Origin: Geobacter sp. FeAm09
GTDB taxonomy: Bacteria > Desulfobacterota > Desulfuromonadia > Geobacterales > Pseudopelobacteraceae
DNA length: 64,000 bases
NCBI RefSeq assembly: GCF_008330225.1
Contig: NZ_CP042466.1
Span: forward strand, 3,962,001-4,026,000
Reading direction: 5' to 3'
A program made the translations under genes and the position numbers. The notes under the pieces were generated by a model. The model was not told where the DNA came from, made no database searches, and saw only the letters and a list, made by a program, of their open reading frames with translations. Below, in pieces: positions 37,759 through 55,812 of this stretch. How positions within the stretch are numbered: position 1 is the first letter of the stretch; each line of letters starts with the position of its first letter.

Positions 37759-40058
37759 CTATTCCGGGGGGGGCTGTTCCGCTGACTTTGTCCGCACCCG
37801 CTGGACGATTTCCAGGCCGTGCTTTTCCAGGAGGCGGTAAAAGGTCCGGCGGGGGATGTTGGCCATCCGGGCCGCCTTGGCCACGTTGCCGCCGGTTTCT
37901 TCCAGATAGCGCTGGATCAGGTTCTTTTCGGTGCGGCTGATGTGCAGTTCCCGTTCCGCCTTGAACGAGGCGTGACGGCGGTTGACCTCCCCGTTGCTGC
38001 ACCGTTCGTAGGTGTCGGCAAAGACGGTGGGGAGGTTTTCCAACCTGATGATCGTGCCTTTGGTGAGGACCGAGGAGCGCTCGATGACGTTTTGCATCTC
38101 GCGGATATTGCCGGGCCAGGGGTAGTGCTGCATGGCCTTGACGGCCCGGTCCTCGATCCCGGCGATGTTCTTGTTCAGCTTTTTGCGGGCCTTGTCCAGG
38201 AAGTGCTCGGCCAGGCTCGGGATGGAATCCTGCCGGTTGCGCAGCGGCGGCAGGTGGATGTTGAAGACGTTCAGACGGTAGTACAGGTCCTCGCGGAACC
38301 ACCCTTCGTGCACGCCCAGTTCCAGGTCCTTGTTGGTGGCCGCGATCAGGCGCACATCCACCTTTTTGGGCGCAGCCCCCCCACCGGCCGCACCTCGCCC
38401 AGGTCGAGAACCCGCAGGAGCTCCGCCTGCAGTTTGGGGGTGATGTCCCCGATCTCGTCCAGGAAGATGGTGCCGCCGTTGGCGGCTTCGAAGAGCCCCT
38501 TCTTGTCCCCGATGGCCCCGGTGAAGGCCCCTTTCTTGTGGCCGAACAGTTCGCTCTCCAGCAGCGAATCGGTGATGGTCGTGCAGTTGACCGTAACCAG
38601 CGGCTTGTCGTTGCGCAGGCTCAGGCGATGGATGGCCCGGGCCGTCAACTCCTTGCCGGTGCCGGTCTCCCCCCTGATGAGGACCGTGGTCGGCGTCGGC
38701 CCCACCTGGCGGATCAGTTCCAGCACCTCCTGGATCTTGCTGTCGTTCCCCACGATCGGGTCGTCGCCCAGCTGCCGGTCCAGTTCGCGCCGGATCAGTT
38801 CGTACTTCTGCATCAACCGCCCCCGGTCGTCCTCGACCTGCTGCAAATTGTGGGGGAGGCACATCTCGATGTCCGCCAGCCCCTGGAAGACCGCCACGGC
38901 GTGTTCCCGGCAGGTGTTGTAGCCGCAGGCGCGGCAATTGAGCTCGTCGCTTTGCGTGAACTTGTTGGTGGAGTGCAGGATGCGCTTGATGTCGTCTTTG
39001 CCCGGGCTCGGCAGCCGGCACGACTTGTCCGAGTAGGGGCGCATCAGGTCCGGCAGGGCCTCCGCGGCGCGGTAGTGGGGCGCCGTTTTGTAGGGGAGCG
39101 TGCTGCCGTTGTAGTTGACGATCAGCTTGCGCTTGTAGAAATGGTTGAGGGTCCGGTCCCGGGCCGGGCCATCGACGCAGCCGCCGTCGCAGAGCCGTAA
39201 ATCCACGAAGGATGGGGTGATCCGGCCGGCAGCCAGGTCGCGGATGATGTCGATGGCGTGGTTTTCCCCCTCGGCGGAGATGATCTCCGTATCGAGAAAA
39301 TCCGGTTCCACCTCGAACACCTTGAACGGGCCGCCGGTAAGGGTGAAGATGCGCGCGTTGTCCGGGTCGAGCCCGTCGAAGGGCGCTTCCACCAGGGATG
39401 CGGGGTTGATGCCGCGGCTCTTGAAGAATTTGTCGATCTCGTGGTAGGTGAGAACCACATCGATGACGCTGGACGATTCAGCCGCCTGCACCTCGAATTT
39501 TCCGGCAATGCAGGTGCTGATGTAGACGACCTTGGTCTCCTTGCCGAGGACCCCCTTGATGAAGCGCCCCATGGCGATCATGGGGGAGACGACCCCCGCC
39601 AGGTTCGGGATCAGTTTGGGGTAATGGCGTTCGATCAGGCTGACCACCGCCGGGCAGTGGGAGGAGATCAGGGGGCGGTCGGTCTGCCGGAGCACCTGCT
39701 TGTAGGCGTCGGCGATCATGCGGGCGCCGTAGGCCCCCTCATGCACCTCGCGGAAGCCGAGATTTTTCAGGGCCGCCACCAACTGTCCGGGGGTGATGGC
39801 GTGGAAGAATGCCGGGAACGAGCACCCCAGCACGGCCACGACGGGTGCACCCGACGTCAGCAGCTCCTGGGTCTGCCCCATCCTGTCCACCACGGCCTTT
39901 GCCTGTTGCGGGCAGCTCAGGCAATTGCCGCAGCCGATGCAGCGGTCGTACATGATCTGGGCAAACCCGTTGTCTACCTTGATGGCCTTGACCGGGCAAC
40001 TGCGTACGCACGAATAACAGAGCCGGCAGCGCTCCTTGAAGGTGATGATCGGTTCCAT
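37759..40058 (-). pseudogene. [FeFe]-hydrogenase-like sensor fused to a sigma-54 activator, single-base frameshift
   Basis: The restored protein (about 766 residues) has two ferredoxin clusters (Cys11/14/17/21 and Cys40/43/46/49), an H-cluster-like hydrogenase domain, a further Fe-S motif (Cys375/378/383/400, CRACGYNTC), a AAA+ sigma-54-interaction domain (GETGTGKE, GAFTGA, DEIGD) and a Fis-type HTH (GGNVAKAARMANIPRRTFYR). The four H-cluster cubane ligands are kept (Cys135, Cys183, Cys290, Cys294) but the proton-relay Cys is His134 (SSHCP), which suits a sensor rather than a catalyst. A run of seven C on the plus strand (38376-38382) lacks one base and breaks the AAA+ domain after GEVRPVGG. 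Start 40058 has AAGGA. Confidence 0.87.
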
Positions 40059-40514
40059 GGCGGGATCCTTGGGATTTTGTGGAATGATGTTGGAAAAATG
40101 ATACACTGAAAAATACATGTGTGCAAGTAGTGACACATATGTGATGATTTTTTTACACGTCATTGTACCGGTGGTTCCTGGGCAACCGTTTCCCCACCCC
40201 GGAGGGATACGAGCGGGCGTTCCGTTTCCCGGACCGTATCCGCGCCCGCGTGCCGGTCTTCAAGAAGACCGGTTTGGAACCTTTATGGGTGATCTGCGCA
40301 TTTGCCGACGTTTTCAAACACGAAAGCCGCCCATTGCTGAGCGGCTTCCCCCTTTTCCCCTCTCCCCATGCCCTGCAAACGTCCAACAACGCAGGAAAAC
40401 GAACCTGGGATTGCCGGCCGCCACCACTGCATCCGGCCATGGCAGGTAGCGGTATCCTGCTCCCCGCTTTCATGGGGCAATTCTTCTTTGTGCCGAACCT
40501 TCGACCTTCCCTGC
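40059..40514. other. Intergenic stretch with possible operators and hairpins
   Basis: Just upstream of the H-cluster regulator gene lie overlapping inverted repeats (ATGTGTGCAAGTAGTGACAC and neighbours, 40114-40146) that resemble TGTGA/TCACA-type sites. At 40253-40272 CCGGTCTT and AAGACCGG form a tight hairpin, and at 40325-40350 AAGCCGC pairs with GCGGCTT, which could terminate the ferritin-like gene. No credible gene is present; open frames in both directions lack homology and ribosome binding sites. Confidence 0.45.
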
Positions 40515-42020: not shown

Positions 42021-43466
42021 ATGCAGCCCAGCGATTTCAACGCCTGCCCCATAATGCTCGTGGATGATGAGACAAGCGCCCTGTCGGTATTGCAAACGCT
42101 CCTTTCCCATGCCGGCCTCACCAACGTGGTGACGTTTGACGACAGTCAGATGGCCCTGGAGTATTTCGAAAAGGAAGAAGCGGCCGTGGTGGTCATGGAT
42201 TTGATGATGCCGAAGCTGCACGGCAGGTACCTTCTGGATGCCTTCCTGCAGGCAAAACCGCATATTCCGGTCATCATTGTCACGGGAGAAGGCCAGGTGG
42301 AGTCGGCCATCGACTGCATGAAGGCTGGTGCCGTCGATTATCTGGTAAAGCCGATCGAAATCAAGCGTTTCGTGGCCGGTGTCAAGAGAGCGCTGGAGTT
42401 GCGGGCGCTCAACGAAGACATCATGCTTCTCGACAAGTGGGCGGGTACGGTGGGTGGCATGCCCCTGCCGCGCATCGGCTCCATCATCACCCAGAACAAG
42501 GAGATGATGACCCAACTGCGCTATGCCGAGGTCGTATCCAAATCCCGGCAGCCGGTGCTGATATCCGGGGAAACCGGCGTGGGGAAAGAGCTTTTCGCCA
42601 ATGCGGTCCATACCCTGAGCGGTCTGCCCGGCAGTTTTATCTGCGTCAACATCGCCGGCCTGGACGACCAGATGTTTTCCGACACGCTGTTCGGCCATTG
42701 CAAAGGCGCCTACACCGGTGCACACAACGACCGGGAGGGGCTGATCATGAAGGCCGCCGACGGCACCATCTTCCTTGACGAGATCGGCGACCTGAATGAG
42801 TACTCCCAGATCAAACTGCTCAGGCTGCTTCAGGAGAACGAATACTATCCCCTCGGCTCGGACACCGCGATCAAAAGCCATGCCCGCCTCGTGGTTGCCA
42901 CAAACCGCAATCTGCGCCAGTGCGTGAATGAGGGGACCTTTCGCAAAGACCTTTATTATCGCCTCAGTACGCATCAGATCTTCATCCCGCCTCTCAGGGA
43001 CCGCCCGGACGACATCCCGCTCCTGCTGGGGCATTTCATAAAGGAGGCGGCCCGCGTCATGGGGAAAGACCGCCTTTCCTACCGCAAGGAGTTGCTGAAC
43101 CTGCTCAAGAGCTATGACTTCCCCGGCAATGTGCGTGAATTGCAATCCATGGTGTTTGATTTTGTCAGCAGGACCGCGACATCGCGGCTCTCCACCCTGC
43201 TTTTCAAAAAAATCATCGAACGGGAGAAGAGCCTGGGCCGCCCCTCCAAAGAGGGAGAAAATAGAGAGGGAGCGGTGGGTTTCAACAGCGTTTTTTTCTC
43301 CACCTTTCCCACCATCAGGCATGCGGAACAGGTCCTGATCGACAAGGCGCTGGCCATTGCCAACGGCAATCAGGGGATTGCCGCCCAACTGCTGGGAGTG
43401 ACCCGCCAGGCATTGAACAACCGCCTGAGGAGGGCAAAAGGCACCGCCCCGCCTGCCCGGCAGTGA
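42021..43466 (+). CDS. Sigma-54-dependent response regulator (NtrC type)
   Basis: A 481-residue activator with a receiver domain (about 10-125; LVDDE, phospho-Asp in VMDLMMPKLHG, Lys in LVKPIE), a AAA+ domain (about 150-385) with Walker A GETGVGKE, the sigma-54 contact loop KGAYTGA (usual form GAFTGA, here Tyr for Phe), Walker B FLDEIGD and arginine-finger region, and a Fis-type HTH at the end (NGNQGIAAQLLGVTRQALNN). It should use ATP hydrolysis to open sigma-54 promoters on phosphorylation. No kinase is adjacent. The divergent DUF1540 operon, with its own candidate sigma-54 promoter, is its most likely target. Confidence 0.92.
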   Translation: MQPSDFNACPIMLVDDETSALSVLQTLLSHAGLTNVVTFDDSQMALEYFEKEEAAVVVMDLMMPKLHGRYLLDAFLQAKPHIPVIIVTGEGQVESAIDCMKAGAVDYLVKPIEIKRFVAGVKRALELRALNEDIMLLDKWAGTVGGMPLPRIGSIITQNKEMMTQLRYAEVVSKSRQPVLISGETGVGKELFANAVHTLSGLPGSFICVNIAGLDDQMFSDTLFGHCKGAYTGAHNDREGLIMKAADGTIFLDEIGDLNEYSQIKLLRLLQENEYYPLGSDTAIKSHARLVVATNRNLRQCVNEGTFRKDLYYRLSTHQIFIPPLRDRPDDIPLLLGHFIKEAARVMGKDRLSYRKELLNLLKSYDFPGNVRELQSMVFDFVSRTATSRLSTLLFKKIIEREKSLGRPSKEGENREGAVGFNSVFFSTFPTIRHAEQVLIDKALAIANGNQGIAAQLLGVTRQALNNRLRRAKGTAPPARQ

Positions 43467-43531
43467 TGCTTGCCGGCGCCGCCGGTTGCGCACCCGGTGG
43501 AACCGGGAAGATGCGCCAGGCGATGGACGCC

Positions 43532-43559
43532 AAAAAGGGCTCCGAGCGGAGCCCTTTTT
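43532..43559. terminator. Bidirectional terminator after the NtrC-type regulator
   Basis: AAAAAGGGCTCC pairs perfectly with GGAGCCCTTTTT over a GAGC loop; it can also end the convergent multicopper oxidase operon. Confidence 0.85.
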
Positions 43560-43584
43560 GCTGTTGATTTGCAAGGTGCCAGGC

Positions 43585-45738
43585 TCAAACGACCACGAGC
43601 GGCCTCATCATGTCGTGTTCCTCGTGTTCGAGGATATGGCAGTGCCAGACATATTCCTTCCCACTCACTCCCAACATCGGATTCAGGCTGTCCGGGACAC
43701 TGAACGGCAACCCTGTCGGGAGGTCGAACCTCATCAATATCCTCGTTACCGTGCCGGGATTCATGCGCGCGGTTTCTTTCCACCCGGCCTCGTTCGGGTC
43801 CGGGCCGACGGCGGGTCCGGTGAAGACGGTATTGCCCGCCATATACTGCGCCACGTCAAAGGGCTGCCGATTGAGAATCTGGAAATTGACCAGATGGAGA
43901 TGGATCGGGTGGGTGTCGCCGGTGAGGTTGTAAATCTCCCACACCTCGCTGGTACCTGAATTGACGACTTCCGAAGCCATATCCATGTACGCCTGGCCGA
44001 CTCCCCGCACCGCCAGGGCGTCCGTTCCCAGCCTCTGCAGAAGGCGGCCCCATGCATCGAAATTCTCATTGAGGGTCAGGCGCCGCGGCGTCCCTCCCGG
44101 AGGCGTGAGGAACGGATCGATGCCAAGGGACAGGTCGGTATTCGTGGTAATGGCAAGCGGCAGGTCGGCGCCGGTAGCCGCTTTGACCTTAAAGCGCATG
44201 AGAATGCGCGTGTTGGGCCCGAACCCGGGACTCGTCAACCCGTTGACCGGATTTCCCGTTTTGTTGAAGCCCGGGAAGTAGTCGTTACGCGGGTCACCCA
44301 TGGGGAACGGAGCGGGCGCGTCACTGTAAAGGATGATGTTCTTTCCGACATAGTTGCTGAAGTCGAGGATCAGGTCGGCCCGTTCGGCCGGCGCCATGAT
44401 GAGTGAACCACTCATTGTGAGCGGGTTGAACGGCACATTGGTGGGGACAAGCGTCGGCTTCGGCAGGAAGCCGGCTTCGGCGGCGATCTGCAATATGGCC
44501 GGTTGATTCTGGGCACCATCGACAAAAGGCGCGTTTTTCGGAATGCCCGTAACGGGGTCCAGGGTTATCCCGTCAGGGCTGCCGTCGTCCACATAGAGCT
44601 GCAGGTTCATGAACCGGGCCTGACAGGCATTGAGGACCCGCAGACGATAACGGCGCGCTTCCACCTCGGCTTCCGGGAAGACCGTGCCGTTGACGAGCAT
44701 GGTGTCGCCGAACATCTCGGGGATGATCGACGGGTTGGGGAGAGTGAGGGGGCTGTAGGTCCTGCGCCAGCGGTTCCGCTCGTAAACGTGGGGATACCAG
44801 AGGCTCCCGGGTGTCGTCGCAGCCGGGGAAACCACAGAGCTCCATGTCGGGTCCACAAGTTTGATGTTGGCGCCGACAAAGATCTTGTCCTGGAAAACGA
44901 GTGGCAGTTCCTGGATTACGTGCCCGTTCACGACCGAATCCTCGATGAACGGCGGCAGCCCCATGTTCAGGAGACCGATCTCAAAGTCGTCCCGGATAAT
45001 ATAGGCCGTGGCGATCCCCGAGTAGGCATTCGTCCGGGTGACGTCATGGGCGTGGTCGTGGTACCAGAGCAGCCGGGCGCTTTGGTTGTTCGGGTAATAG
45101 TATTCGGCCTGCCCGGGCAGGAGTCCGGGATTCAGAATCTTGTAGAGATTGGTTGCCCCATTTGCTATCGACGAGCCATAGTCACCCTTGGGATCGAAAT
45201 AGGTCATGGGCCCGCCATCGCTGATCCAGGGGACGAAGCCGCCGTGAAGGTGCACCGTGACACGGTTCACGCTGCGGGCCGCATCGGGGAATATGGAACT
45301 CGTATCTACCGGGATGATGCCCTTTGCCGGAAGTTTATTGGTAACCGTCAGCTGGGTCGGCACCCCCTTTTTTGCTACGATGATGCCGCCGAGGTGTTTC
45401 TGCGGCTGACTCCCCCCCAAAGGCGTGACCGGGTTATATCCCCACAGGGTCGTTGGGCCGAGGGTGGGGCAGACGCCGCTATCCTGAAACTGGTTGATAT
45501 CGATGGCGTAGTGGGCCGCACCCGTCACCGCCGAGACTCCATCCGACGCCGCCACCGGTATCCCCCCCGGCCCAACGCCGCGCAATCCGGTTTTATAGAG
45601 CGGGATTTTGTTGGAAGGGCTCTGATAGAACGCCAGGGCTTCGCCGCTTCCCAACCATTTCATGGGCAATGGCATCAACATTGCTCCCGTTGCCAAGCCG
45701 CTCACCTGTAAAAATTTCCTTCTACTGATCTTTTTCAT
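43585..45738 (-). CDS. Tat-exported multicopper oxidase
   Basis: A 717-residue multicopper oxidase of the CotA/bilirubin-oxidase type. The signal peptide has the twin-arginine motif SRRKFLQVSG and is Tat-dependent. All four copper-ligand segments are visible: TVHLHGG and WYHDHAHD near the N-terminal third, HPIHLHLVNF and WHCHILEHEEHDMM at the end, the last giving the type 1 Cys, His and Met. It would oxidise a substrate (metal ion, phenol or cytochrome) at the periplasm or surface while reducing oxygen. It is the last gene of the riboswitch operon, 78 bases after the PEP-CTERM gene, with AGGAGG-like bases before its ATG. Confidence 0.9.
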   Translation of the reverse strand: MKKISRRKFLQVSGLATGAMLMPLPMKWLGSGEALAFYQSPSNKIPLYKTGLRGVGPGGIPVAASDGVSAVTGAAHYAIDINQFQDSGVCPTLGPTTLWGYNPVTPLGGSQPQKHLGGIIVAKKGVPTQLTVTNKLPAKGIIPVDTSSIFPDAARSVNRVTVHLHGGFVPWISDGGPMTYFDPKGDYGSSIANGATNLYKILNPGLLPGQAEYYYPNNQSARLLWYHDHAHDVTRTNAYSGIATAYIIRDDFEIGLLNMGLPPFIEDSVVNGHVIQELPLVFQDKIFVGANIKLVDPTWSSVVSPAATTPGSLWYPHVYERNRWRRTYSPLTLPNPSIIPEMFGDTMLVNGTVFPEAEVEARRYRLRVLNACQARFMNLQLYVDDGSPDGITLDPVTGIPKNAPFVDGAQNQPAILQIAAEAGFLPKPTLVPTNVPFNPLTMSGSLIMAPAERADLILDFSNYVGKNIILYSDAPAPFPMGDPRNDYFPGFNKTGNPVNGLTSPGFGPNTRILMRFKVKAATGADLPLAITTNTDLSLGIDPFLTPPGGTPRRLTLNENFDAWGRLLQRLGTDALAVRGVGQAYMDMASEVVNSGTSEVWEIYNLTGDTHPIHLHLVNFQILNRQPFDVAQYMAGNTVFTGPAVGPDPNEAGWKETARMNPGTVTRILMRFDLPTGLPFSVPDSLNPMLGVSGKEYVWHCHILEHEEHDMMRPLVVV

Positions 45739-45816
45739 AAGGGAATCCTCCTTTTTCTCCCTGGCGGGAGGATGTAGAAATGCCGAAAGCCTCGATTTAC
45801 GCGGAATAAAATGGTC

Positions 45817-46704
45817 CTAGCAGCCTGTTGACATGCCTTTGCGCCGACGGTAGAGCAGTATGCCGAGGAGGCCGCCGCCAAAGAGAATGATGGCGGACGG
45901 TTCGGGAACAGAAGTGACCTCGGCCAGGGTACCTGCCGTTGCGGTCAGGGTCCACGTTTGACCGCCGAAAACATCGATGGTGCCGAAGAGATCGCCAAGG
46001 GTTGTAAGGCCGGTAAGCGAGTCCACGGTTCCGAGCATGAGCACATCCTGGCCAAACATGCGAAGCGGGTTGGTCACCCTGACCTGGTAGTTTTTGCTGG
46101 AACCATCGCTCAAGAGGAAATCGAGCCACGCCTCCGCCCTCGCTGTGTAGGTAGTCGTGTCGTCGGGAAAGAGCATGAAGTTGTAGAGCCCCAGAGCTCC
46201 GAGGGTCATGGTCCCGGCGCCGGAACCATTGACCGTGAAGGTCTGGGTGTAATTCGCCGTGTCGGTGGCGGTCACCGTTCCACCAAGCAGCGACGAGACG
46301 TTGCTGTTTCCCAGCACGACAAAGTCGGAGGCCAGGGGATTGGCGAGCGGGTCGGGGTTTGCGGCGGCAGGCGCCGCGGAGACCAGCGTGCCGAGGTAAG
46401 CGAATTGGGTCCCGGCCACGTCGGAATACGTGGTGGAAAGCGGCCCGACGCTGCCGTCAACACCGGTCGTGAAGGAGCCGGCTCCCGTGGCGCTGTCGTT
46501 CGCCACCAGGCTTCCGTTGCTGTAAATGCTCCCCGATGCGCTTGTGGCGATGTCGCCGAAGGTAATCCCCAGGGACGAGCTTATGGTGATCGTGTCTATC
46601 TGAGCCTCGGTAGCGAGTGACACCCCCCATGACGCCGATACCTGCGCCAGCATACCCAACAAGCAGAGGTTGAAAACAACAAAGAGCTTACGTTCCTTTT
46701 TCAT
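45817..46704 (-). CDS. PEP-CTERM surface protein
   Basis: A 295-residue exported protein with signal peptide (VVFNLCLLGMLAQVSASWG) and the C-terminal sorting signal VPEPSAIILFGGGLLGILL followed by YRRRKG: the PEP motif, membrane helix and basic tail recognised by an exosortase. The body is Ser/Thr/Gly-rich and beta-prone, low in Cys. PEP-CTERM proteins are anchored or released at the cell surface with exopolysaccharide in biofilm formers. An exosortase gene is not in the window. It lies between the cytochrome-like and multicopper oxidase genes of the operon (86- and 78-base gaps) with AGAGGAGGAG before the ATG. Confidence 0.85.
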   Translation of the reverse strand: MKKERKLFVVFNLCLLGMLAQVSASWGVSLATEAQIDTITISSSLGITFGDIATSASGSIYSNGSLVANDSATGAGSFTTGVDGSVGPLSTTYSDVAGTQFAYLGTLVSAAPAAANPDPLANPLASDFVVLGNSNVSSLLGGTVTATDTANYTQTFTVNGSGAGTMTLGALGLYNFMLFPDDTTTYTARAEAWLDFLLSDGSSKNYQVRVTNPLRMFGQDVLMLGTVDSLTGLTTLGDLFGTIDVFGGQTWTLTATAGTLAEVTSVPEPSAIILFGGGLLGILLYRRRKGMSTGC

Positions 46705-46790
46705 GGCCGACTCCTCCTCTATCTGGATTTTGCCTGCGTTCGCCGGGCAATTGCAGCCGAATGCAGCAACCTGGGCACTCCAACCTGATT

Positions 46791-48986
46791 TTAGTCGTCG
46801 TTATTGCGGTGTTCCTCGTCGCTTCCCTCGGGCCGGTAAATGACATTGCGGGTTACGGTGCTGCTGTTGCCGGCCGCATCCGTCGCGGTGACGGTAATGG
46901 TGTACAGTTTGGCGCGGGTAAAGGTAAGCCGCTGCCGGAAAATACCGTTGGTCACCAACTGGGTGTACGTTTTGCCTGACATGGTGACGGTCACGGTGAT
47001 CTCCTTGGTGGTGTTGGTGACTTTACCGAGGAGAATCAGGGGAGAACGGCTGGTGGTCATGTCCTGGGCGGGGTTGGTGACCGCCAGTGTGAACTTGGAC
47101 GTATCGTATGATACTGTCCGCTTGGCACTGGAGGTGTTGCCCGCCAGGTCGGTCGCCACGATAGTGATGGTATTCACGCCCGACGTCAGATTGACGGTGG
47201 CACTGAAATTGTTGCCGCTCATGGTGGCGGATTGGGGGCTGCCGCCGTTGTTGGCGATAGCCACCGTGGAGGTTTCGCTGACGCTGCCGGTCACGGCGGC
47301 GAATGACGATGTCGTGGTGCTGTTGTCGATGGGGGACGCAACCGTCAGTACCGGAGCAGACGGATCATAGTTGATGGTGCGGGTATCGCTTTTCTGGTTG
47401 CCGGCGCTGTCGGTGGCGATGACCGCAATGGTGTTGGCCCCGGCAATCAGGGTGATGGCGGTGGAGAAGGAGCCGTCGGACATGATGGTGACGTTCTGGC
47501 CGTTGACGGTGACGGACTGGGTGCCGGCACTGACGCTGCCGCTGATGTTGAGCGTGGCATTGTTGGTGTATGAACCGTCGGAAAGTGCCGAAACCGTAAG
47601 TGTCGGGGCGCTTGACCGTATCGTAATGCTGAAGGCGCTGGAGGCGCTCCCCCCGGTCGTCGTGACGGTGACGGTTCCGGCGCCGGTGGCGGCATTGGCG
47701 GCGACGCTGACCGGCAGGCTGACCGAGGTGGCGGTTGCGGTGGCCGTACCACCGGTAACCCCGCTGTTGCTGAAGCTTACCGCTGCGCCCGTCAGATTGG
47801 CGCCCGTGATGGTGACGACCTGATTGACTGCCCCCTGTACGAGGCTGTTGGGGCTCACCGAGCTGATTGCCGGTAGCGGAATGGCGCTGGCGGTGACGCT
47901 GAAGGCCTTGGAGGCGTTACCGTTGGCCGTGGTGACGGTGACCGTCCCGGTACCGGTAGCAGCGGCGGCCCCGACACTGACCGGTACGTTGATGGAGGTG
48001 GCGGTCCCGGTGGCTGCGCCGGCGGTCACCCCGCTGTTGCTGAAGTTCACCATGGCGCCGGTCAGGTTGGTGCCGGTTATGGTGATGGTTTGACCGGTAG
48101 CCCCCTGAGCAAGGCTGTTGGGGGAAACCGAGTCGATCGTCGGCGCCATGGCGGCGCTGGCGGTGACGTTGAAGGCGCTGGAGGCGCTGCCCCCGGCCGT
48201 GGTGACGGTGACCGTCCCGGTGCCGGTGGCGGCGGTGGCGGTTACGCTGACCGGTACGCTGATGGAGGTGGCGGTGCCGGTGGCGGCGCCGGCGCTGACC
48301 CCGCTGTTGCTGAAGCTCACCGTGGCGCCGGTCAGGTTGGTTCCGGCGATGGTGACGCTCTGGCCGGCAGCCCCCTGCACGAGGCTGTTGGGAGCCACCG
48401 AACTGATCGTGGGCGCCGGCAGGGTGGCCGAGGCGACGGTAAAGGGGGTGGAGATATTGACAATTTCCGAACCATGGTCAGGATTATTGGGGTCTGGTGT
48501 CCAACCGGAACCGAAGGCCGCCCCCCCGGCGTCGGACTGGTTGCCGTACCAGCCGACTTTCCAGGTGTAGGTGCCCGGCGTTGCCGGTGCGGCTGCGCTC
48601 AGCGTGGCGGGATAGGTGGCCGAACTGCCCATGCCGCTGTCATTGCCGGTGGACCTTGCCAACTCGACGCTGTTCTGGTCATAAAGCACGGCCCGGAACC
48701 AGCCGCTGCGGTAGCCGCCGGTAATGGTGACCGTTACCAACTCCCCCGGGGCGTAGGAACTCTTGTTGGTTGTGCCCGCCACATTGATGGAGCTCTTGGC
48801 GCTGCTCGGGTGGGTGCCGTGGGCATGACAGCCGTTGCAGGTGGCAACGACCGGTGAGGCATGGCAACCGGAACACCCTTGACCGGTGAAGTAACTGGAT
48901 TGAGCCCATGCCTCGAAACCCCACAGGTGGGTCACAACCACTGCTGCAAAGAAACAGAGCGCGGCAACTTTTCCGACAAGCTTCAT
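46791..48986 (-). CDS. Exported di-haem protein with TIG/IPT and Ig-like repeats
   Basis: A 731-residue surface protein. After the signal peptide come two haem c motifs, CSGCH (about 38) and CNGCH (about 51), then a Reeler-like domain (SGWFRAVLYDQNSVELAR, YTWKVGWYGNQSD). Three TIG/IPT repeats of about 90 residues follow (each with SSVSPNSLVQGA, TITGTNLTGA, VSFSNSGV and GTVTVTT; about 200-470) and then three bacterial Ig-like domains (DSAGN, DLAGN and DAAGN turns) to the end. I start at 48986, where AGGAG is six bases upstream; ATG 48992 abuts it. It is the first gene behind the riboswitch. It probably anchors or extends an electron-transfer unit. Confidence 0.85.
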   Translation of the reverse strand: MKLVGKVAALCFFAAVVVTHLWGFEAWAQSSYFTGQGCSGCHASPVVATCNGCHAHGTHPSSAKSSINVAGTTNKSSYAPGELVTVTITGGYRSGWFRAVLYDQNSVELARSTGNDSGMGSSATYPATLSAAAPATPGTYTWKVGWYGNQSDAGGAAFGSGWTPDPNNPDHGSEIVNISTPFTVASATLPAPTISSVAPNSLVQGAAGQSVTIAGTNLTGATVSFSNSGVSAGAATGTATSISVPVSVTATAATGTGTVTVTTAGGSASSAFNVTASAAMAPTIDSVSPNSLAQGATGQTITITGTNLTGAMVNFSNSGVTAGAATGTATSINVPVSVGAAAATGTGTVTVTTANGNASKAFSVTASAIPLPAISSVSPNSLVQGAVNQVVTITGANLTGAAVSFSNSGVTGGTATATATSVSLPVSVAANAATGAGTVTVTTTGGSASSAFSITIRSSAPTLTVSALSDGSYTNNATLNISGSVSAGTQSVTVNGQNVTIMSDGSFSTAITLIAGANTIAVIATDSAGNQKSDTRTINYDPSAPVLTVASPIDNSTTTSSFAAVTGSVSETSTVAIANNGGSPQSATMSGNNFSATVNLTSGVNTITIVATDLAGNTSSAKRTVSYDTSKFTLAVTNPAQDMTTSRSPLILLGKVTNTTKEITVTVTMSGKTYTQLVTNGIFRQRLTFTRAKLYTITVTATDAAGNSSTVTRNVIYRPEGSDEEHRNNDD

Positions 48987-49061
48987 AATCATCTCCTTCC
49001 TGACATGCAGCGATCACGCTGCGGACACGTAGAGAGCCCTGAACCAATGACGCTCAGGAGC

Positions 49062-49112
49062 AAAAAATGGCCGGGTTGCACAAAGAAACACATTCTTTGG
49101 CAACCCGGCCAT
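49062..49112 (-). terminator. Riboswitch-controlled terminator
   Basis: On the minus strand GGCCGGGTTGC plus CAAAGAA pair with TTCTTTG plus GCAACCCGGCC and end in ATTTTTTG. The 5' arm shares bases with the 3' end of the aptamer (P3 and the C92 region), so folding of the terminator and of the ligand-bound aptamer exclude each other; ligand should favour read-through. Confidence 0.8.
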
Positions 49113-49172
49113 CTTCCCGGATGAAGATCCGTGGCTTTCCGTCCCCTCCTCACGAAGGGTTAGGCTTTATCG
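49095..49172 (-). promoter_or_regulatory. c-di-GMP-I (GEMM) riboswitch aptamer
   Basis: On the minus strand the segment reads GCCTAACC, a stem CCCTTC-GTGA-GGAGGG with a GNRA loop, GGACGGAAAGCC, ACGG with a P3 hairpin (ATCTTC..GAAGAT) and CCGGGTTGCC. This is the GEMM-I pattern. With Vibrio Vc2 numbering recalled from the published structure, G20, A47 and C92 (the ligand contacts) are kept; the pair G21-C46 appears as C21-G46, a compensatory change. G at position 20 favours c-di-GMP over cGAMP. Confidence 0.8.
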
Positions 49173-49279
49173 GCATATTTTTCAGGTCGGCGCGTATGGG
49201 GCATCACACCAGCGATGCTGTTTTTTGCCGCTGTGGTGTCGGACGTGACACGATTGGGACAAGGCAATGATTACTTTTA

Positions 49280-49295
49280 AGCACCATGTGTGCCA
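49280..49295 (-). promoter_or_regulatory. Candidate sigma-54 promoter of the riboswitch operon
   Basis: On the minus strand TGGCACACATGGTGCT matches TGGCACRNNNNTTGCW except at one base (GTGC for TTGC), with exact GG/GC spacing. Transcription would start near 49268 and run through the riboswitch at 49172. Confidence 0.6.
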
Positions 49296-49646
49296 CGGGA
49301 TCTGAAAAAAATTGTGCAGTTATTTCAATTTGATATGCTTTTGCTGGGCTGTCGGGGATGCGTTCGAATATGCAACAAATAAGGCTGCGATCATTGGGGG
49401 GGAATGGGGCGGAGGGCCTGCAGCAAGGCTTGCAGCGGGGTAAAACGAATTTTGCTTATGCAACAAATATGGCACGTTCTTGCCCCATCATCCATGGGGC
49501 GCCAGCGACACCGCAAGCGGCAACGGCTCCACGGGCGTCCCAGGCTAGCCGTGCGGGTTCCCGGTGTTGTTTGCAGGCACGCCAAACGCCTATTGTGGCT
49601 CCCCTCATTTCGTCGCCGGGGTAATGACAGATTTTTGTTGATTCCA
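49296..49646. other. Intergenic stretch with no recognised element
   Basis: Between the sigma-54 promoter and the MarR operator I see no credible gene. Short open frames here have no ribosome binding site or homology. Enhancer sites for the sigma-54 promoter may lie here but cannot be named. Confidence 0.4.
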
Positions 49647-49661
49647 TTTTGGAAATATTGT
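49647..49661 (+). promoter_or_regulatory. Putative MarR operator, copy 1
   Basis: TTTTGGAAATATTGT lies 30 bases before the marR-type gene and recurs exactly, inverted, at 50151-50165. A local palindrome TTCCA-TTT-TGGAA overlaps it. Confidence 0.55.
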
Positions 49662-49690
49662 AAGTTGAAATTAAGTTGACGGGAGGTCGT

Positions 49691-50134
49691 ATGATCGACG
49701 AAAAACTGTCCAGGCAGGCAATGGAATTGACGGCGAAGATGACCCAACTGATCGATGCCTCGGTCGCGCCCGGAAAGGACCATCCCTTTCCGGACCTGGC
49801 GCTTACCCCGCGGGAGGTCAATATCCTGATTCTGCTGGGTAAGCGTGAGGAACTCATCATGACCGAACTGGCTGCCATGACCGACTCCCCTCTCAGTACC
49901 GCGACACGCGTCGTGGACCGGTTGGTGAAAAAGAATCTGGTCCAGAGAGAGCGTTCGGAGCGGGATCGCCGGATTGTGGTCATCCGTGCCAGCGAAGAGG
50001 GGAAGTTGTTCTACCGGAGCATGCAACAGCAACATTTGGCCGCCAGTTACAAGATGCTCCAGGCTCTCACCGAGGAGGAGCGAGAGGTGTATGTCGGGTT
50101 GGTGGGAAAGCTTGCCGCGGTGCTGCGCCGGTAG
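49691..50134 (+). CDS. MarR-family transcriptional regulator
   Basis: A 147-residue winged-helix regulator. The fold is visible as helices 1-2 (KLSRQAMELTAKMTQLI), LTPREVNILILLGK, the recognition helix in STATRVVDRLVKKNLVQRE and the wing SERDRRIVVIRASEEG. MarR proteins usually repress efflux genes until a phenolic or lipophilic compound binds. GGGAGG precedes the ATG. The RND efflux operon starts 56 bases downstream on the same strand, and the same 15-base sequence stands upstream of both, supporting autoregulation and control of the pump. Confidence 0.88.
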   Translation: MIDEKLSRQAMELTAKMTQLIDASVAPGKDHPFPDLALTPREVNILILLGKREELIMTELAAMTDSPLSTATRVVDRLVKKNLVQRERSERDRRIVVIRASEEGKLFYRSMQQQHLAASYKMLQALTEEEREVYVGLVGKLAAVLRR

Positions 50135-50150
50135 CGGTCTTTTTTTTTGC

Positions 50151-50165
50151 ACAATATTTCCAAAA
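50151..50165 (-). promoter_or_regulatory. Putative MarR operator, copy 2
   Basis: ACAATATTTCCAAAA is the exact inverse of the sequence at 49647-49661 and sits 25 bases before the outer-membrane efflux gene. Confidence 0.55.
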
Positions 50166-50190
50166 ATCAATTATTGCTAAATGGTGAGTC

Positions 50191-51603
50191 ATGAAAAACT
50201 ATCTCAAATTCGCCGGGCCGACACTGGGTGCCCTCGCTCTGGCCGGTTGCGTCACCGTCGGCCCCGATTACCGCAAGCCGGACCTCGCGATGCCGGAAAC
50301 GTGGTCCGTATCGGCCTCCAAAGAGAAGCTGACGGACCTCACGAAGTGGTGGTCCACCTTCAAGGACCCGGTCCTCGAAAAACTGGTCGATGCAGCTGAA
50401 AAGGACAACCCGACGCTCTCGAAGGCCGCGGCGGCCATCGAAAAAGCCCGTGCGAACCGCTCTTCAGTCGATTCGGGCTTTTTGCCGGAGCTTAGTGCCA
50501 CGGCCAGCGGAAGCGGTGCCGGCTCCCTGAATAAGAGTGCCGGCACCTCCGGCAGCGTCGGCACGACCTATAGCGCAAGTGCCGGCTTGGATGCTTCGTG
50601 GGAGCTCGACATCGTGGGGAAGAACCGCCGCTCGTCCGAATCGGCGAACGACCTTGTCCAGGCGCGAGTCGCGGACTGGCATGACGCCAGGGTCTCGCTG
50701 GCTGCCGAGGTGGCAACGGCGTACGTCGATTATCGGGCATGCCGGCTGAAGGAAATGTATTACGCGGAGCAGGCCGACTCCCAGGAAAAGACCGGCAGGC
50801 TTACCAACCTTTCCGCCAATGCCGGTTTTACGGCTCCGGCGGACGCGAGACTGGCCGAGGCGTCGGCCGCTTCGACCCGCTCGACGGCCCTGGCGCAGAA
50901 AACGGAATGCCAGGTCCTGGTAACGTCCCTGGTCGCCCTTACCGGACTGACGGACGCCGCGCTGCGGCAGCACCTCGGGGGCGCCGCAGCGAGCTTGCCC
51001 AAGCCCGAAGAGCTCCGTGTGACATCGGTCCCCGCGGACCTTTTGCGCCAGCGGCCGGATATCGTCTCCGCGGAACGGACCCTCGCCTCCACCAACGCCC
51101 TGATCGGGGTGGCCGAGGCCGGCCGCTACCCCAGTCTGAGCCTTTCCGGCTCCGTCAGCCTCTCGGCCACGAGCGGTACGGCCATGAGCGCGCCCTGGTC
51201 GTTCGGCCCAACGTTGAACCTTCCGCTCTTCAACGGCGGCAAGACGGAGGCCTCTATCAAGAGCGCCAGATCGGACTATGACTCGGCTCTGGCGGATTAC
51301 CAGCAGACCGTCCGTACTGCCGTAAAGGAGGTCGAACAGGCCCTGACGCGTCTTGACAGCATGGCCAAAAGGGAGGACCAGGCCCGCATCAGCGCCGAGG
51401 GGTATCGTGCCTATTTGTCGGCCACCGAACAGAACTGGCGCGTCGGGCGCAGCAGCCTCCTGGATCTGGAAACGGCGCGTCGCTCAAGCATCAGTGCGGA
51501 TATAACCTTGCTCGAACTACAGCAAAGCCGGCTGGAATACTGGATCGCGCTTTATAAGGCGGTCGGCGGAGGCTGGAAAGAAAACGATGGAGGAGCCAAG
51601 TGA
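50191..51603 (+). CDS. Outer-membrane efflux lipoprotein (NodT/OprM family)
   Basis: A 470-residue TolC-like channel. The signal peptide ends in a lipobox (LALAGC, Cys at about 19), so the protein is a lipoprotein. It begins VTVGPDYRKPDLAMPETW as in NodT/OprM proteins, and has the two repeated outer-membrane-factor halves, with the helical segments EVATAYVDYRACRLKEMYY and RQRPDIVSAERTLASTNA marking them. It forms the exit duct of the tripartite RND pump with the next two genes. Its stop overlaps the GTG start of the membrane-fusion protein (GTGA). Confidence 0.93.
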   Translation: MKNYLKFAGPTLGALALAGCVTVGPDYRKPDLAMPETWSVSASKEKLTDLTKWWSTFKDPVLEKLVDAAEKDNPTLSKAAAAIEKARANRSSVDSGFLPELSATASGSGAGSLNKSAGTSGSVGTTYSASAGLDASWELDIVGKNRRSSESANDLVQARVADWHDARVSLAAEVATAYVDYRACRLKEMYYAEQADSQEKTGRLTNLSANAGFTAPADARLAEASAASTRSTALAQKTECQVLVTSLVALTGLTDAALRQHLGGAAASLPKPEELRVTSVPADLLRQRPDIVSAERTLASTNALIGVAEAGRYPSLSLSGSVSLSATSGTAMSAPWSFGPTLNLPLFNGGKTEASIKSARSDYDSALADYQQTVRTAVKEVEQALTRLDSMAKREDQARISAEGYRAYLSATEQNWRVGRSSLLDLETARRSSISADITLLELQQSRLEYWIALYKAVGGGWKENDGGAK

Positions 51604-52697
51604 AATTGAACGTGAAGAAGATGGCCATTTTCATTGCAGCCACCCTTGCCGCAGGCGGTATCGCCTTGGGCTTGAGGAGTCCCTCGCCCTCCACAAAGGC
51701 ACAGACCAAGGTTGCCAAGTCGGTCCTGAGCGTGGCCTCCACCCGGCCGGTGCACAAGCAGTGGCCGATAGAACTCTCCGCCAGCGGCAGCGTCGTGGCG
51801 TGGCAGGAGGCGCTGATCAGTGCCGAGACCGGCGGGTTGCGCATCACCGCGCTTCGCGTGGATGTGGGCGACCATGTCAGGCGCGGGCAAATACTGGCCG
51901 AATTGTCCCAGGCCTCCGTTCAGGCGGATGTGCGCCGCTACGAGGCCGCGCTCTCTTCGGCGCGGGCGAGCCTGGCGCAGGCGAAAGCCAACGCCGACCG
52001 GGCGCGTCTTGTGAAGGGAAGCGGCGCCATCTCCGAGCAGCAGGTCAATGAATACCTGGCCACGGAGAAGACCGCCAAGGCGAGCGTCGAGGTGGCCGAG
52101 GCCCAACTCGCGGCGCAGAAGGTTACCCTGTCCCAGACCCATATCGTTGCGGTGGACGACGGCACCATCACCTCGCGAAGCGCGGTACTCGGCCAAGTCG
52201 TCAGCGTCGGCACCGAACTGTTCCGGCTGCATCGCCAGGACCGGCTGGAATGGCAGGCCGAGGTGGACGCGAAACAGCTCTTGGCCGTTAAAGCCGGCGC
52301 AACGGCCGAAGTAACCCTTCCCTCCGGCCAGAATCTCCGGGGGACGGTCCGGGTGGCCGCTCCGACCCTTTCCACCACTACCAGCCGGGCGAATGTCTTT
52401 GTCGGCCTGCCGGTCCAGAGCGGCGCCAAAGCCGGCATGTTCGCCAGCGGCCGCATCATGGCAGGCGACAAAGGCGTTCTTGCCGTACCGGAATCGGCCC
52501 TGGTGCAGCGCGACGGCCGGAACTACCTCTTCGAAATCGGCGTCGGCAACAAGGTGATTCGGCGCATAGTGGCAACGGGGACACATCGTGACGGCCTGGT
52601 CGAGATCACAAGCGGTATCGGTGCCGCGGCCGTCCTGGTGGCCTCGGGGGGAGGATTCCTTTCCGATGGCGATCTCGTCACGGTAACAAAGGAGTAA
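51600..52697 (+). CDS. RND efflux periplasmic adaptor (membrane fusion protein)
   Basis: A 365-residue adaptor. A short membrane anchor (MAIFIAATLAAGGIALGL) precedes the barrel-sandwich hybrid (SGSVVAWQEALISAETGGLR, VGDHVRRGQILAELSQASV), an alpha-helical hairpin (about 100-150; ALSSARASLAQAKANADRARL) and the closing barrel domains (TITSRSAVLGQVVSVGTELF, AEVTLPSGQNLRGTVR). It joins the inner pump to the outer duct. The GTG start overlaps the upstream stop. The RND transporter gene begins 4 bases after its stop. Confidence 0.93.
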   Translation: MKLNVKKMAIFIAATLAAGGIALGLRSPSPSTKAQTKVAKSVLSVASTRPVHKQWPIELSASGSVVAWQEALISAETGGLRITALRVDVGDHVRRGQILAELSQASVQADVRRYEAALSSARASLAQAKANADRARLVKGSGAISEQQVNEYLATEKTAKASVEVAEAQLAAQKVTLSQTHIVAVDDGTITSRSAVLGQVVSVGTELFRLHRQDRLEWQAEVDAKQLLAVKAGATAEVTLPSGQNLRGTVRVAAPTLSTTTSRANVFVGLPVQSGAKAGMFASGRIMAGDKGVLAVPESALVQRDGRNYLFEIGVGNKVIRRIVATGTHRDGLVEITSGIGAAAVLVASGGGFLSDGDLVTVTKE

Positions 52698-52701
52698 CAA
52701 C

Positions 52702-55700
52702 ATGAACTTTTCCGCCTGGGCCATTCGCAATCCTGTCCCGTCCCTGCTTCTTTTCATACTGCTGACCATCTCCGGGATCTACGGGCTGGATAAGTTGGGC
52801 ATCCAGAACTTCCCCGACATGGACCTCCCCACCATCAAGATCAGTGCAACACTGGAGGGGGCCGCGCCGGCCCAGCTCGAAACCGAAGTCGCGAGAAAGA
52901 TCGAGGACAAGCTCACCTCACTGACAAAGCTCGACCACATCACCACTACCATCACCGACGGTTCGGTCGCCATCTCGGTCTCGTTCGAGATCGACAAGAA
53001 CACCGAAGAGGCCCTGAATGAGGTCCGAAATGCCGTCGATTCGGCCAAAGCCGACCTGCCGGCGAGCATGAACAGCCCGACCGTCTCCAAGGTCACCGAC
53101 GCCGGCAGCGCCATCCTCACCTATACCGTCGAATCGGGCAATATGAGCGAGGAGGAGCTGTCCTGGTTCGTGGACAACGACGTGGCAAAAACGCTGCTGT
53201 CGGTGAAGGGGGTCAATACGGTCTCACGGCTGGGGGGCGTAAGCCGTGAGGTGCATGTGGATCTCGACCCGGCCGTGATGGGCGGGATGGGGGTGACCCT
53301 TGCCGATGTCTCGTCACAGCTCAATGCCGTCCAGCAGGACGCTTCGGGGGGGCGGGGCGAAGTCGGAAAGTCGATCCAGTCGCTTCGGACCTTGGGGGCG
53401 GTGCATACGGCCGATGAGGTGGCCGCGCTGACGATCCCCCTGAGCGACGGCCGGCGCATCAGGCTCGACCAGATCGCCAAGGTGACCGACAGTTATGCGG
53501 AGCGGAGCACGCTCGCCTATGTGGACGGCAAACGGGTGATCGGCTTTCAGCTCACCCGCTCGAAGGGGTTCTCGGACGTCGGCGTTGCGGATGGGGTGCG
53601 CGAGGCGGTGGCAAAATTCTCCGCCGCCCATCCCCAGGTGAAGATCCACGAGGCCAGCAACAGCGTGGCATCGATCAAGGAGAACTACCACGGTTCCATG
53701 CACCTGCTTCTGGAAGGGGCCCTCCTCGCCGTTATCGTGGTGTGGCTCTTCCTGCGCGACTGGCGGGCGACGGTGATCTCGGCCACGGCGCTCCCCCTTT
53801 CGATCATCCCGACCTTCATAGTGATGAAATTCTTTGATTTCAGCCTCAATACCATAACACTCTTGGCGCTTTCGCTGGTGATCGGCATCCTGGTCGACGA
53901 CGCCATCGTGGAGGTGGAGAACATCGCACGGCACCTGCGCATGGGCAAAAGCCCCTACCAGGCTGCGATGGAGGCCGCCGACGAGATCGGCCTCGCCGTG
54001 ATCTCCACGACGCTGACGCTGGTGGCGGTATTTCTGCCGACCGCCTTCATGGGAGGGATTCCCGGCAAGGTCTTCAAACAGTTCGGCATTACGGCCGCGA
54101 CGGCGGTGCTCGCCTCGCTGCTGGTGGCGAGGCTTTTGACCCCCATGATGTCGGCCTATTTCATGAAGGAAACGGGGCACGCCGAGTCGGATTCCGCGCT
54201 TATGACGCGCTACCTCGGGTGGTTGCGCGCCTGTCTTGCCAACCGCCGCCGAACGGCCATAGCGGCGCTTCTGTTCCTGGTGGGCTCTCTGGCGCTGATC
54301 CCGTTCATTTCCACCGGCTTCATGCCGGCGCAGGACGATGGCCAAACCAAGGTCACCCTCACCCTGGCTCCAGGAAGCTCGCTTGACGACACCGCCCGGC
54401 TTGCCCTGCGGGCCAGCACGCTGATCAAACAGCTGCCGGACGTCACCCAGGTCTTCGCTTCAGTCGGCACCGCAAGTTCGGGCGGTGGTATGGATACCTC
54501 CACAAGTACCGAGGTCAATTCGGCAACCCTCACCGTCGACATGAAGCCGCGCAAGGAAAGACACAAACAGGTCGTGGTGGAAGAGCAGATTCGCGACGCC
54601 CTGCGCGTGCTCCCGGGGGCGCGGGTCACCATCGGCCGCGGGAACAGTGGTGAAAAACTGGAGGTGACCCTCGCCAGCGACGACTCACAGGTGCTGGAGA
54701 GTGCGGCGGCCTCGCTGGAACGCGATATGCGCACCCTGAAAGGGGTGGGAAGCGTCACCTCCGGCCAGGCCCTGCAGCGCCCCGAGATCCAGATCCGGCC
54801 CGATTATGCCCGGGCCTCCCAGTTGGGCGTCACCGTCGAAGCATTAGGTGATGCGGTCCGGCTGGGTACCTACGGCGACTACTCCTCAAAGCTCAACAAG
54901 CTGAACCTGCCGCAGCGTCAGATAGCCGTCCGGGTGCGCCTCGATCCGGAAGTCCGCAACGATCTGGGCCGCATCGGCATGATCCGGGTGGCGGGGAGCA
55001 AGGGGCAGGCCACCCTTGCCTCGCTTGCCGACATCCGCATGGGGAGCGGCGCCTCCCAGATCGATCGGCTGGACCGCTACCGGAACATTACCATCTCCGT
55101 AGAGCTGAACGGCCGTTCCCTGGGGGAGGTCATGAACGAGGTGCGTCAGCTCCCGGCAATGAAGAACCTTCCCAAGGGGGTATCCACCGCCCAGCAGGGG
55201 GAACTGCAGCGCATGAGCGAGCTTTTCGGGAGCTTCGGCGTCGCCATGGCCGTCGGCATCCTCTGCATATATGTCGTGCTGGTGTTGTTGTTCCACGACT
55301 TTCTCCAGCCCGTGACCATCCTGGCCGCGCTGCCGCTCTCCCTGGGGGGGGCGCTGCTGGCGATCCTGGCAACCCGCAACAATTTCTCGATGCCTGCCGT
55401 CATCGGCCTTTTGATGCTGATGGGGATCGTTACCAAGAACTCCATCCTCCTGGTGGAGTATGCCATCGTTGCGCGGCGGCAGCATGGGATGAGCCGGTTT
55501 GAAGCGCTGGTGGACGCCTGTCACAAGCGTTCGCGCCCGATCCTCATGACCACCATCGCCATGGGCGCCGGCATGCTTCCTATCGCTCTCGGCCTGGGCG
55601 CAGACCCGAGTTTCCGCCAGCCGATGGCCATCCTCGTGATCGGCGGCCTGCTCACCTCGACATTGCTGAGCCTCTTGGTGATCCCCGTGGTTTTCACCTA

Positions 55701-55812
55701 CATCGACGATCTTCTCCAGCTCTTCCGCCGCCGCTTGCTCTCCGCGCATCAGAAAGGGGCCGATTCGGGCGGCGTGGCAAAGGGGGAAGCACTACAGGGG
55801 GGAATCGATTGA
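52702..55812 (+). CDS. RND-family efflux transporter (AcrB/HAE1 type)
   Basis: A 1036-residue inner-membrane, proton-driven multidrug transporter. The start MNFSAWAIRNPVPSLLLF, the twelve membrane helices in two repeats, the helix-4 proton-relay Asp pair in LSLVIGILVDDAIVEVENI (about 410) and the large periplasmic loops are as in AcrB. Length is close to AcrB (1049). It pumps hydrophobic compounds via the adaptor and duct encoded upstream. The substrates cannot be read from sequence. It is followed 31 bases later by an OmpR-type regulator, a common companion. Confidence 0.95.
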   Translation: MNFSAWAIRNPVPSLLLFILLTISGIYGLDKLGIQNFPDMDLPTIKISATLEGAAPAQLETEVARKIEDKLTSLTKLDHITTTITDGSVAISVSFEIDKNTEEALNEVRNAVDSAKADLPASMNSPTVSKVTDAGSAILTYTVESGNMSEEELSWFVDNDVAKTLLSVKGVNTVSRLGGVSREVHVDLDPAVMGGMGVTLADVSSQLNAVQQDASGGRGEVGKSIQSLRTLGAVHTADEVAALTIPLSDGRRIRLDQIAKVTDSYAERSTLAYVDGKRVIGFQLTRSKGFSDVGVADGVREAVAKFSAAHPQVKIHEASNSVASIKENYHGSMHLLLEGALLAVIVVWLFLRDWRATVISATALPLSIIPTFIVMKFFDFSLNTITLLALSLVIGILVDDAIVEVENIARHLRMGKSPYQAAMEAADEIGLAVISTTLTLVAVFLPTAFMGGIPGKVFKQFGITAATAVLASLLVARLLTPMMSAYFMKETGHAESDSALMTRYLGWLRACLANRRRTAIAALLFLVGSLALIPFISTGFMPAQDDGQTKVTLTLAPGSSLDDTARLALRASTLIKQLPDVTQVFASVGTASSGGGMDTSTSTEVNSATLTVDMKPRKERHKQVVVEEQIRDALRVLPGARVTIGRGNSGEKLEVTLASDDSQVLESAAASLERDMRTLKGVGSVTSGQALQRPEIQIRPDYARASQLGVTVEALGDAVRLGTYGDYSSKLNKLNLPQRQIAVRVRLDPEVRNDLGRIGMIRVAGSKGQATLASLADIRMGSGASQIDRLDRYRNITISVELNGRSLGEVMNEVRQLPAMKNLPKGVSTAQQGELQRMSELFGSFGVAMAVGILCIYVVLVLLFHDFLQPVTILAALPLSLGGALLAILATRNNFSMPAVIGLLMLMGIVTKNSILLVEYAIVARRQHGMSRFEALVDACHKRSRPILMTTIAMGAGMLPIALGLGADPSFRQPMAILVIGGLLTSTLLSLLVIPVVFTYIDDLLQLFRRRLLSAHQKGADSGGVAKGEALQGGID

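Follow-up and report, generated by a model that had tools for sequence, protein, structure and literature searches.

A predicted c-di-GMP-switched multicopper oxidase operon of two modules in Geobacter sp. FeAm09

Layout of the locus and its riboswitch

We analysed a 64,000-nucleotide (nt) stretch of the Geobacter sp. FeAm09 genome (here the window; contig NZ_CP042466.1, positions 3,962,001 to 4,026,000), in which three minus-strand genes follow a riboswitch aptamer of the GEMM-I, or cyclic di-GMP (c-di-GMP)-I, type. Reading away from the aptamer, open reading frames (ORFs) and domain matches identify a 733-amino-acid (aa) protein with two CxxCH motifs and TIG/Ig-like repeats (46791 to 48992; here the di-haem protein), a 295-aa PEP-CTERM protein, or exosortase substrate (45817 to 46704), and a 717-aa CotA-like multicopper oxidase (MCO) with a Tat signal (43585 to 45738). 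The genes are separated by gaps of 86 nt (di-haem/PEP-CTERM) and 78 nt (PEP-CTERM/MCO), and a purine-rich Shine-Dalgarno-like stretch precedes each of the three ORF starts. An initial annotation of this DNA had described the same riboswitch-led layout, and its coordinates, gap lengths and domain calls are correct.

All three proteins carry export signals. In the di-haem protein, both haem-binding motifs (residues 40 to 44 and 52 to 56; 48825 to 48875) follow an N-terminal hydrophobic segment, the arrangement of a c-type cytochrome, and haem attachment is predicted; no PDB relative was found at E 0.01. The PEP-CTERM protein has a signal helix, the PEP motif, a C-terminal helix and a basic tail, although the helices come from a low-confidence structure model (mean pLDDT, 56.5). 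Its sorting motif (residues 265 to 288; 45841 to 45912) scores 27.8 bits in Pfam against a cut-off of 20.7. The genome, a single contig of 4,099,068 bases, contains one exosortase match (262.7 bits), six PEP-CTERM motif matches and one TatC match (202 bits), so both sorting routes are available.

The MCO begins with the twin-arginine motif ISRRKFLQVSG, as expected of a Tat substrate, and matches Cu-oxidase_2 at 53.7 bits. All copper sites are present, and the HxH/HCH copper-ligand motifs are common to 14 aligned homologues, save for the C-terminal one in a single locus (L100). The best PDB relative is the CotA laccase 1gsk (E 2e-62), which we take to be that of Bacillus subtilis. The two share their MCO family, the copper-ligand motifs and a C-terminal HCHILEHE..DMMRP signature; unlike CotA, the window MCO has a Tat-type signal, is about 200 aa longer and is paired with a PEP-CTERM protein. 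The sequence resembles CotA and not CueO, scoring 88.2 bits against a cut-off of 525 for the CueO equivalog NF008205.

The aptamer (49095 to 49174, minus strand) scores 64.0 bits against RF03167 (E 8e-13; cut-off, 59) and 64.5 bits against the parent family RF01051 (cut-off, 35). We did not adopt the "GGC variant" label that Rfam attaches to RF03167, which we take to mean a G at the site corresponding to A47: the stretch is ACGGAAA in the window and ACGCGAA in the consensus, with A in place of the consensus G, and the parent family scores nearly the same. The 3'-end strand of the aptamer, GAUGGCCGGGUUGC, can instead pair with GCAACCCGGCC, followed by AUUUUUU, as the 5' arm of a predicted intrinsic terminator (49062 to 49116; -57.7 kcal/mol, fold z -5.4, none of 200 shuffles equally stable). 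Because aptamer and terminator are mutually exclusive, the layout is that of an ON switch, and an ON switch with such a layout has been described for pilM of G. metallireducens (PMC9262584).

Upstream, 105 nt from the aptamer, lies a candidate sigma-54 promoter, TGGCAC-N5-GTGC (49280 to 49295, minus strand). In a scan with hand-set weights, the 200 nt upstream were shuffled 300 times at constant composition without once reaching this score. A site at 1/300 or better was found in only 3 of 21 GEMM leaders (the window, L334 and L271), so such sites are not general to the leaders scanned. At the other end, a palindromic hairpin terminator with A/T runs (43531 to 43560) separates the MCO gene from a convergent regulator gene; by itself this is weak evidence, since the number of terminator-like sites that the scan reported for the region, 5, is no higher than the 5.7 expected. 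That scan, whose loop limit misses the aptamer terminator, gave no minus-strand site in either intergenic gap, and no sigma-70 promoter was found in 43400 to 49700. A single transcript of all three genes is plausible. The individual features that the initial annotation had listed thus stand: a c-di-GMP-type riboswitch (a GEMM-I match above the gathering score, with the G20 discussed below), a candidate sigma-54 site, three export signals with one exosortase sorting signal, two haem motifs beside TIG/Ig-like repeats and a full set of copper sites.

Relatives of the PEP-CTERM/MCO pair and of the di-haem gene

We searched 117 related genomes for the MCO and examined, with wide flanks, the best 15 loci among the matches listed (L097 to L111). 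A PEP-CTERM gene lies directly upstream of the MCO gene in 11 of the 15, at a spacing of 51 to 131 nt in ten; in the eleventh (L111, genome G093) the MCO is apparently split over frames. The upstream PEP-CTERM gene is missing in L098, L100, L106 and L107, and the genome of L098 carries a PEP/MCO pair on another contig (L173). In L107 (8290 to 12358, plus strand; genome G056), the MCO gene follows that of a 468-aa curlin-like repeat protein in place of a PEP-CTERM protein. Pairwise similarity between the window PEP-CTERM protein and most MCO-adjacent ones is low. Without its signal and tail, it nevertheless scores 27.1 bits against a profile built from six MCO-adjacent PEP-CTERM proteins (200 shuffles reached at most 3.0 bits, or 9.8 for the best single domain), a match to that family; it has no listed match to the profile of a second group of four. 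PEP-CTERM protein and MCO are a real conserved pair.

Further downstream, CusB/CusA-like genes occur in 9 of the 15 loci (L099, L101 to L105 and L108 to L110). Those of L102 and L108 fall in the CusA/CzcA family by NCBIfam (1065 and 1075 bits), five more match those of L108 by BLAST, as seen in the named duplicates of their loci (L141, L142, L167, L172 and L174), and the calls in L104 and L110 were made by position, size and N-terminal sequence. We also surveyed 78 named MCO loci, of which at least eleven share a genome with L097 to L111. A PEP-CTERM gene precedes the MCO in at least 8, and an RND match to a CusA query is found in at least 13, including loci from Acidobacteria, Aminicenantes, Syntrophobacteraceae and Nitrospiraceae; these are lower bounds, as the contig starts less than 400 nt from the MCO in L149, L152, L158 and L159, and L147 and L156 were centred on a longer MCO-like ORF other than the match. 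No genes neighbour the PEP/MCO pair more often than efflux genes of the CusB/CusA type, and this speaks for a role in metal handling and not in respiration. In the open-access literature, the titles, abstract beginnings and passages retrieved contained no riboswitch-controlled multicopper oxidase and no PEP-CTERM/MCO pair. An Acido-Lenti-1 RNA lies downstream of one acidobacterial MCO gene (L144, 6266 to 6312, plus strand).

The closest MCO among the matches listed belongs to another family of the order (genome G082, 82% identity), while the best match from the same genus (5 genomes) reaches 45% over part of the protein, which suggests recent transfer.

For the di-haem gene, we examined the best 19 loci among the matches listed. 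A GEMM aptamer is present in the leader of 13 (13 of 17 testable, the stretches of L094 and L096 stopping short of the leader), and none reaches the gathering score in L112, L114, L119 and L121. The four aptamer-less genes have one or two extra C-terminal CxxCH pairs; seven aptamer-led relatives with a C terminus that could be read, and the paralogue in the FeAm09 genome, have an acidic tail and no extra pairs. In the window gene, the body shares 91.5% DNA identity with the gene of genome G005, which has no aptamer, but the collinear match covers 46829 to 49002 only. One end lies ten bases before the start codon. The other follows the codons for IYRP, after which the window continues with a short acidic tail and the PEP-CTERM gene, and G005 with a further haem pair. 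Judged by these breakpoints, the di-haem body has another ancestry than its leader, its tail and the genes that follow, which makes the window copy a mosaic. No aptamer reaches the gathering score in the closest di-haem relatives (G005, G056 and G048), which weakens the idea of a ligand switch within one orthologue; that the leader was gained or swapped is just as likely. In G005, the di-haem/TIG gene is followed after about 3.3 kb by a different MCO-like gene of 1,597 aa on the same strand, with a 683-aa ORF between them (L349, 7606 to 12399, minus strand).

In the loci examined, the two sets of relatives lie apart. The di-haem gene is absent from all 15 best MCO loci and its N terminus from all 78 named ones, and this MCO is absent from all 11 di-haem loci opened with wide flanks. 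We therefore rejected a conserved trio, which leaves the surface electron-transfer unit suggested by the initial annotation with partial support: its description of the switch, the exported proteins and the copper sites holds, but as a conserved system the unit is not supported, since homologues of the three do not co-occur where we looked.

The separation of the two modules in every other locus examined would also fit an accidental neighbourhood, in which a stand-alone di-haem gene with its riboswitch happens to precede a PEP/MCO copper module that has its own transcript and no functional link to it. The affinity of the MCO to another family rather than to its own genus points the same way. 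However, the genes share a strand and lie only 86 and 78 nt apart, no minus-strand terminator or sigma-70-like site was found between them, and further GEMM-led MCO genes exist (see below). On balance we regard an accidental arrangement as rather unlikely.

Ligand type of the switch and its recurrence before oxidase genes

We aligned the 18 GEMM-I aptamers of the FeAm09 genome (alignment A2) and equated one column with position 20 in the numbering of the Vc2 structure. This column holds G in nine aptamers, including that of the window, and A in nine. The genome's G20 aptamers score 49.5 to 70.1 bits against RF01051 and its A20 aptamers 35.3 to 49.2 bits, so that the window aptamer outscores every A20 aptamer. 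In published accounts, A20 marks the form that binds cyclic GMP-AMP (cGAMP) and G20 the c-di-GMP form (PMC6274999, PMC9262584). The window riboswitch is probably a c-di-GMP-type ON switch, with ligand binding predicted from these features. By comparison, all 19 aptamers found before related di-haem genes are A20, as is that of the paralogue in the same genome.

The sole exosortase match of the genome lies near tandem G20 GEMM aptamers (L123; G000:C1:2381069-2392961). These lead a gene for a 1,126-aa Ig-repeat protein, and an opposite-strand gene lies between. In two other genomes, RF03167 aptamers of 69.4 and 70.6 bits lead genes for metallo-beta-lactamase-fold proteins with Tat-like N termini (L269, 6642 to 7943, and L272, 6931 to 8397, both minus strand).

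A search with the window leader returned many GEMM leaders, and 18 stretches were opened on the basis of leader similarity and contig room, not gene content. Taking as first gene the first ORF of at least 90 aa on the aptamer strand, we found an MCO in two of the 18. The one in G074 (L266) is 844 aa long, has a weak dockerin match and begins 140 nt after the aptamer; the one in G011 (L267) is 760 aa long and begins about 620 nt after its aptamer (59.9 bits), with a 47-aa ORF as the only candidate between.

When 77 genomes were surveyed with Pfam Cu-oxidase_2, 47 matches were obtained, one of them the window MCO. Among the other 46, we kept the 42 with at least 400 nt upstream (excluding L306, L315, L338 and L340), and 2 of these 42 have a same-strand upstream aptamer: G074 again (69.0 bits) and G015 (L334; 32.8 bits), both scored with model R1. 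Model R1 was built here, has a poor structure of 10 pairs and served only to locate aptamers. The G015 aptamer has G in place of A20, and its MCO lies in two frames from about 320 nt after the aptamer; the G011 MCO did not pass the survey E-value and stands outside this count. With about 15 GEMM leaders in about 3,700 genes (from the FeAm09 genome, gene number estimated), the chance expectation would be about 0.17, giving a Poisson P of about 0.013 for two or more, a small number of cases. One further example comes from a contig assigned by binning to a Nitrospirae metagenome-assembled genome (L140), where an RF03167 aptamer of 65.0 bits lies about 130 nt before an MCO gene whose product is 59% identical to that of the window.

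In the window aptamer and these four, the aptamer 3' end can form 19 to 24 pairs with sequence further downstream. The five GEMM-led proteins each fall on a branch of their own in a tree of 47 MCOs, and no two of them are sisters; L267 is a long branch of unsure position. A G20 GEMM ON switch before an MCO gene thus recurs at four further loci (G011, G074, G015 and the Nitrospirae assembly).

A proposed metal-oxidase operon of attached cells

Taken together, these observations lead us to favour, with moderate confidence, a c-di-GMP-induced operon for an envelope metal oxidase (copper, iron or manganese; O2-consuming) in surface-attached cells. This reading builds on the gene order, the aptamer and its G20, the terminator overlap, the PEP/MCO pair and the mosaic, all taken from sequence, and we infer from there the ligand, promoter, transcript, substrate and location. 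RNA polymerase, perhaps with sigma-54, would start about 95 nt before the GEMM-I aptamer. Without ligand, the aptamer 3' strand would pair with downstream sequence and form the terminator; with c-di-GMP bound, this strand would be held in the aptamer and transcription would run through the di-haem/TIG, PEP-CTERM and MCO genes to 43531 to 43560. Tat would export the MCO, and the exosortase of the genome would process the PEP-CTERM protein. These two may work together as a pair of older origin, found most often in a setting of copper or heavy-metal efflux. In the envelope of attached cells, the MCO would use O2 to oxidise a reduced metal, in the first place Cu(I) and possibly Fe(II) or Mn(II). 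The di-haem protein would be a secreted envelope or adhesin-like member of the GEMM regulon that was joined to the pair by recombination. The operon apparently combines two modules under a switch of a familiar type, in an assembly that is recent and specific to this locus.

Published work offers partial parallels. Biofilm growth of G. sulfurreducens on electrodes requires a c-di-GMP synthase (PMC6456294), and two PEP-CTERM proteins of this species are upregulated under cobalt, a precedent for a metal link (PMC7726332). The cGAMP (GEMM-Ib) regulon of G. sulfurreducens and G. metallireducens (pgcA, omcAHG, pilM) likewise has a GEMM-I aptamer merged with a terminator, ON logic and exported haem proteins downstream (PMC6456294, PMC9262584); the window differs in its G20 and in having genes for an exosortase substrate and a multicopper oxidase at the end of the operon. 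The multicopper proteins OmpB and OmpC of G. sulfurreducens, likened here by description, are discussed for Geobacter biofilm and electron transfer, and the text seen of these sources makes no riboswitch link (PMC10599522, PMC3495685). In Pseudomonas resinovorans, c-di-GMP is linked to Mn(II) oxidation (PMC9765421); this case does not help the MCO reading, since haem peroxidases act there and MCO genes are unaffected.

Several points weigh against the proposed metal-oxidase operon. The copper assignment draws on the neighbours of MCO relatives and not on the window. These relatives often lie beside CusB/CusA-like genes, as in CueO/CusCBA copper homeostasis, but the window MCO is CotA-like rather than CueO-like, no CusBA genes lie beside it, a nearby RND pump on the opposite strand scores best as a multidrug type, and the two closest MCO loci listed (L097 and L098) also have no CusBA. 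The GEMM-MCO link is rare: besides the 2 of 42 above, an aptamer precedes 1 of the 78 named MCO genes and, at the gathering score, none of the best 15 listed. Other haem proteins lie near three of those 15, one with nine CxxCH motifs directly after the MCO (L107), one with two (L105) and one with twelve (L103), leaving a redox partnership open. Moreover, G20 has been described as a selectivity factor and not a hard filter (PMC9262584), and the OmcST riboswitch is reported to sense both ligands (PMC6456294), so a cGAMP response of the window aptamer is possible.

If the aptamer answered cGAMP through the Hypr/GacA pathway, the operon would be tied to contact with Fe(III) particles instead of biofilm. 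The uniformly A20 leaders of related di-haem/TIG genes would suit this, as would a C-G pair beside position 20 (numbered as before) that the window shares with the A20 type. The window has G20, however, as in the RF03167 consensus shown, and its RF01051 score is higher than that of any A20 aptamer of the genome; we consider a cGAMP ligand improbable.

A single three-part complex, in which a surface-held di-haem protein passes electrons from metals or from the cell to an O2-reducing MCO, would agree with three export signals in one riboswitch-led unit, with the unrelated haem proteins near three MCO relatives and with the frequency of cytochromes among other GEMM-regulated Geobacter genes (PMC6456294, PMC2700814), but it is doubtful given that the di-haem gene is missing from all 15 best and 78 named MCO loci and that the window copy has no C-terminal haem pairs like those of its closest relatives. 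Extracellular respiration is not supported as the role of the operon.

Elsewhere in the window, a divergent plus-strand run (49676 to 55812) comprises genes for a MarR regulator, an outer-membrane-channel-like protein, an adaptor-like protein and the multidrug-type RND pump, and is followed by a response regulator ORF (55844 to 56515); MarR and the pump were checked, and the others were named by reading the sequence. An iron-sulfur, sigma-54-activator-like gene, also named by reading (37759 to 40163, minus strand), appears as two overlapping ORFs of 605 and 420 aa in different frames, which suggests a frameshift or a sequencing error.

To our knowledge, the functions of exosortase substrates are mostly unknown as a class, and the PEP-CTERM/MCO/CusBA module suggests a metal-handling role for one of them. 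The host is a relative of the metal-breathing Geobacter bacteria, and c-di-GMP is a biofilm signal; G. sulfurreducens is reported to use cGAMP for Fe(III) particles and c-di-GMP for electrode biofilms, two surface lifestyles (PMC6456294). A c-di-GMP-type aptamer and a copper oxidase on a gene family otherwise led by cGAMP-type aptamers, among the leaders found here, make the locus a concrete case of possible signal re-wiring. The point most worth following is that ON switches of the c-di-GMP type recur ahead of multicopper oxidase genes. We tentatively propose that a c-di-GMP-sensing, transcription-ON riboswitch may have been placed before secreted MCOs on several independent occasions, within Geobacterales and in one or more further lineages, and that here it may also have captured an exosortase-substrate/MCO copper module and a di-haem protein. 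O2-dependent metal oxidation would then be a biofilm trait under direct riboswitch control.

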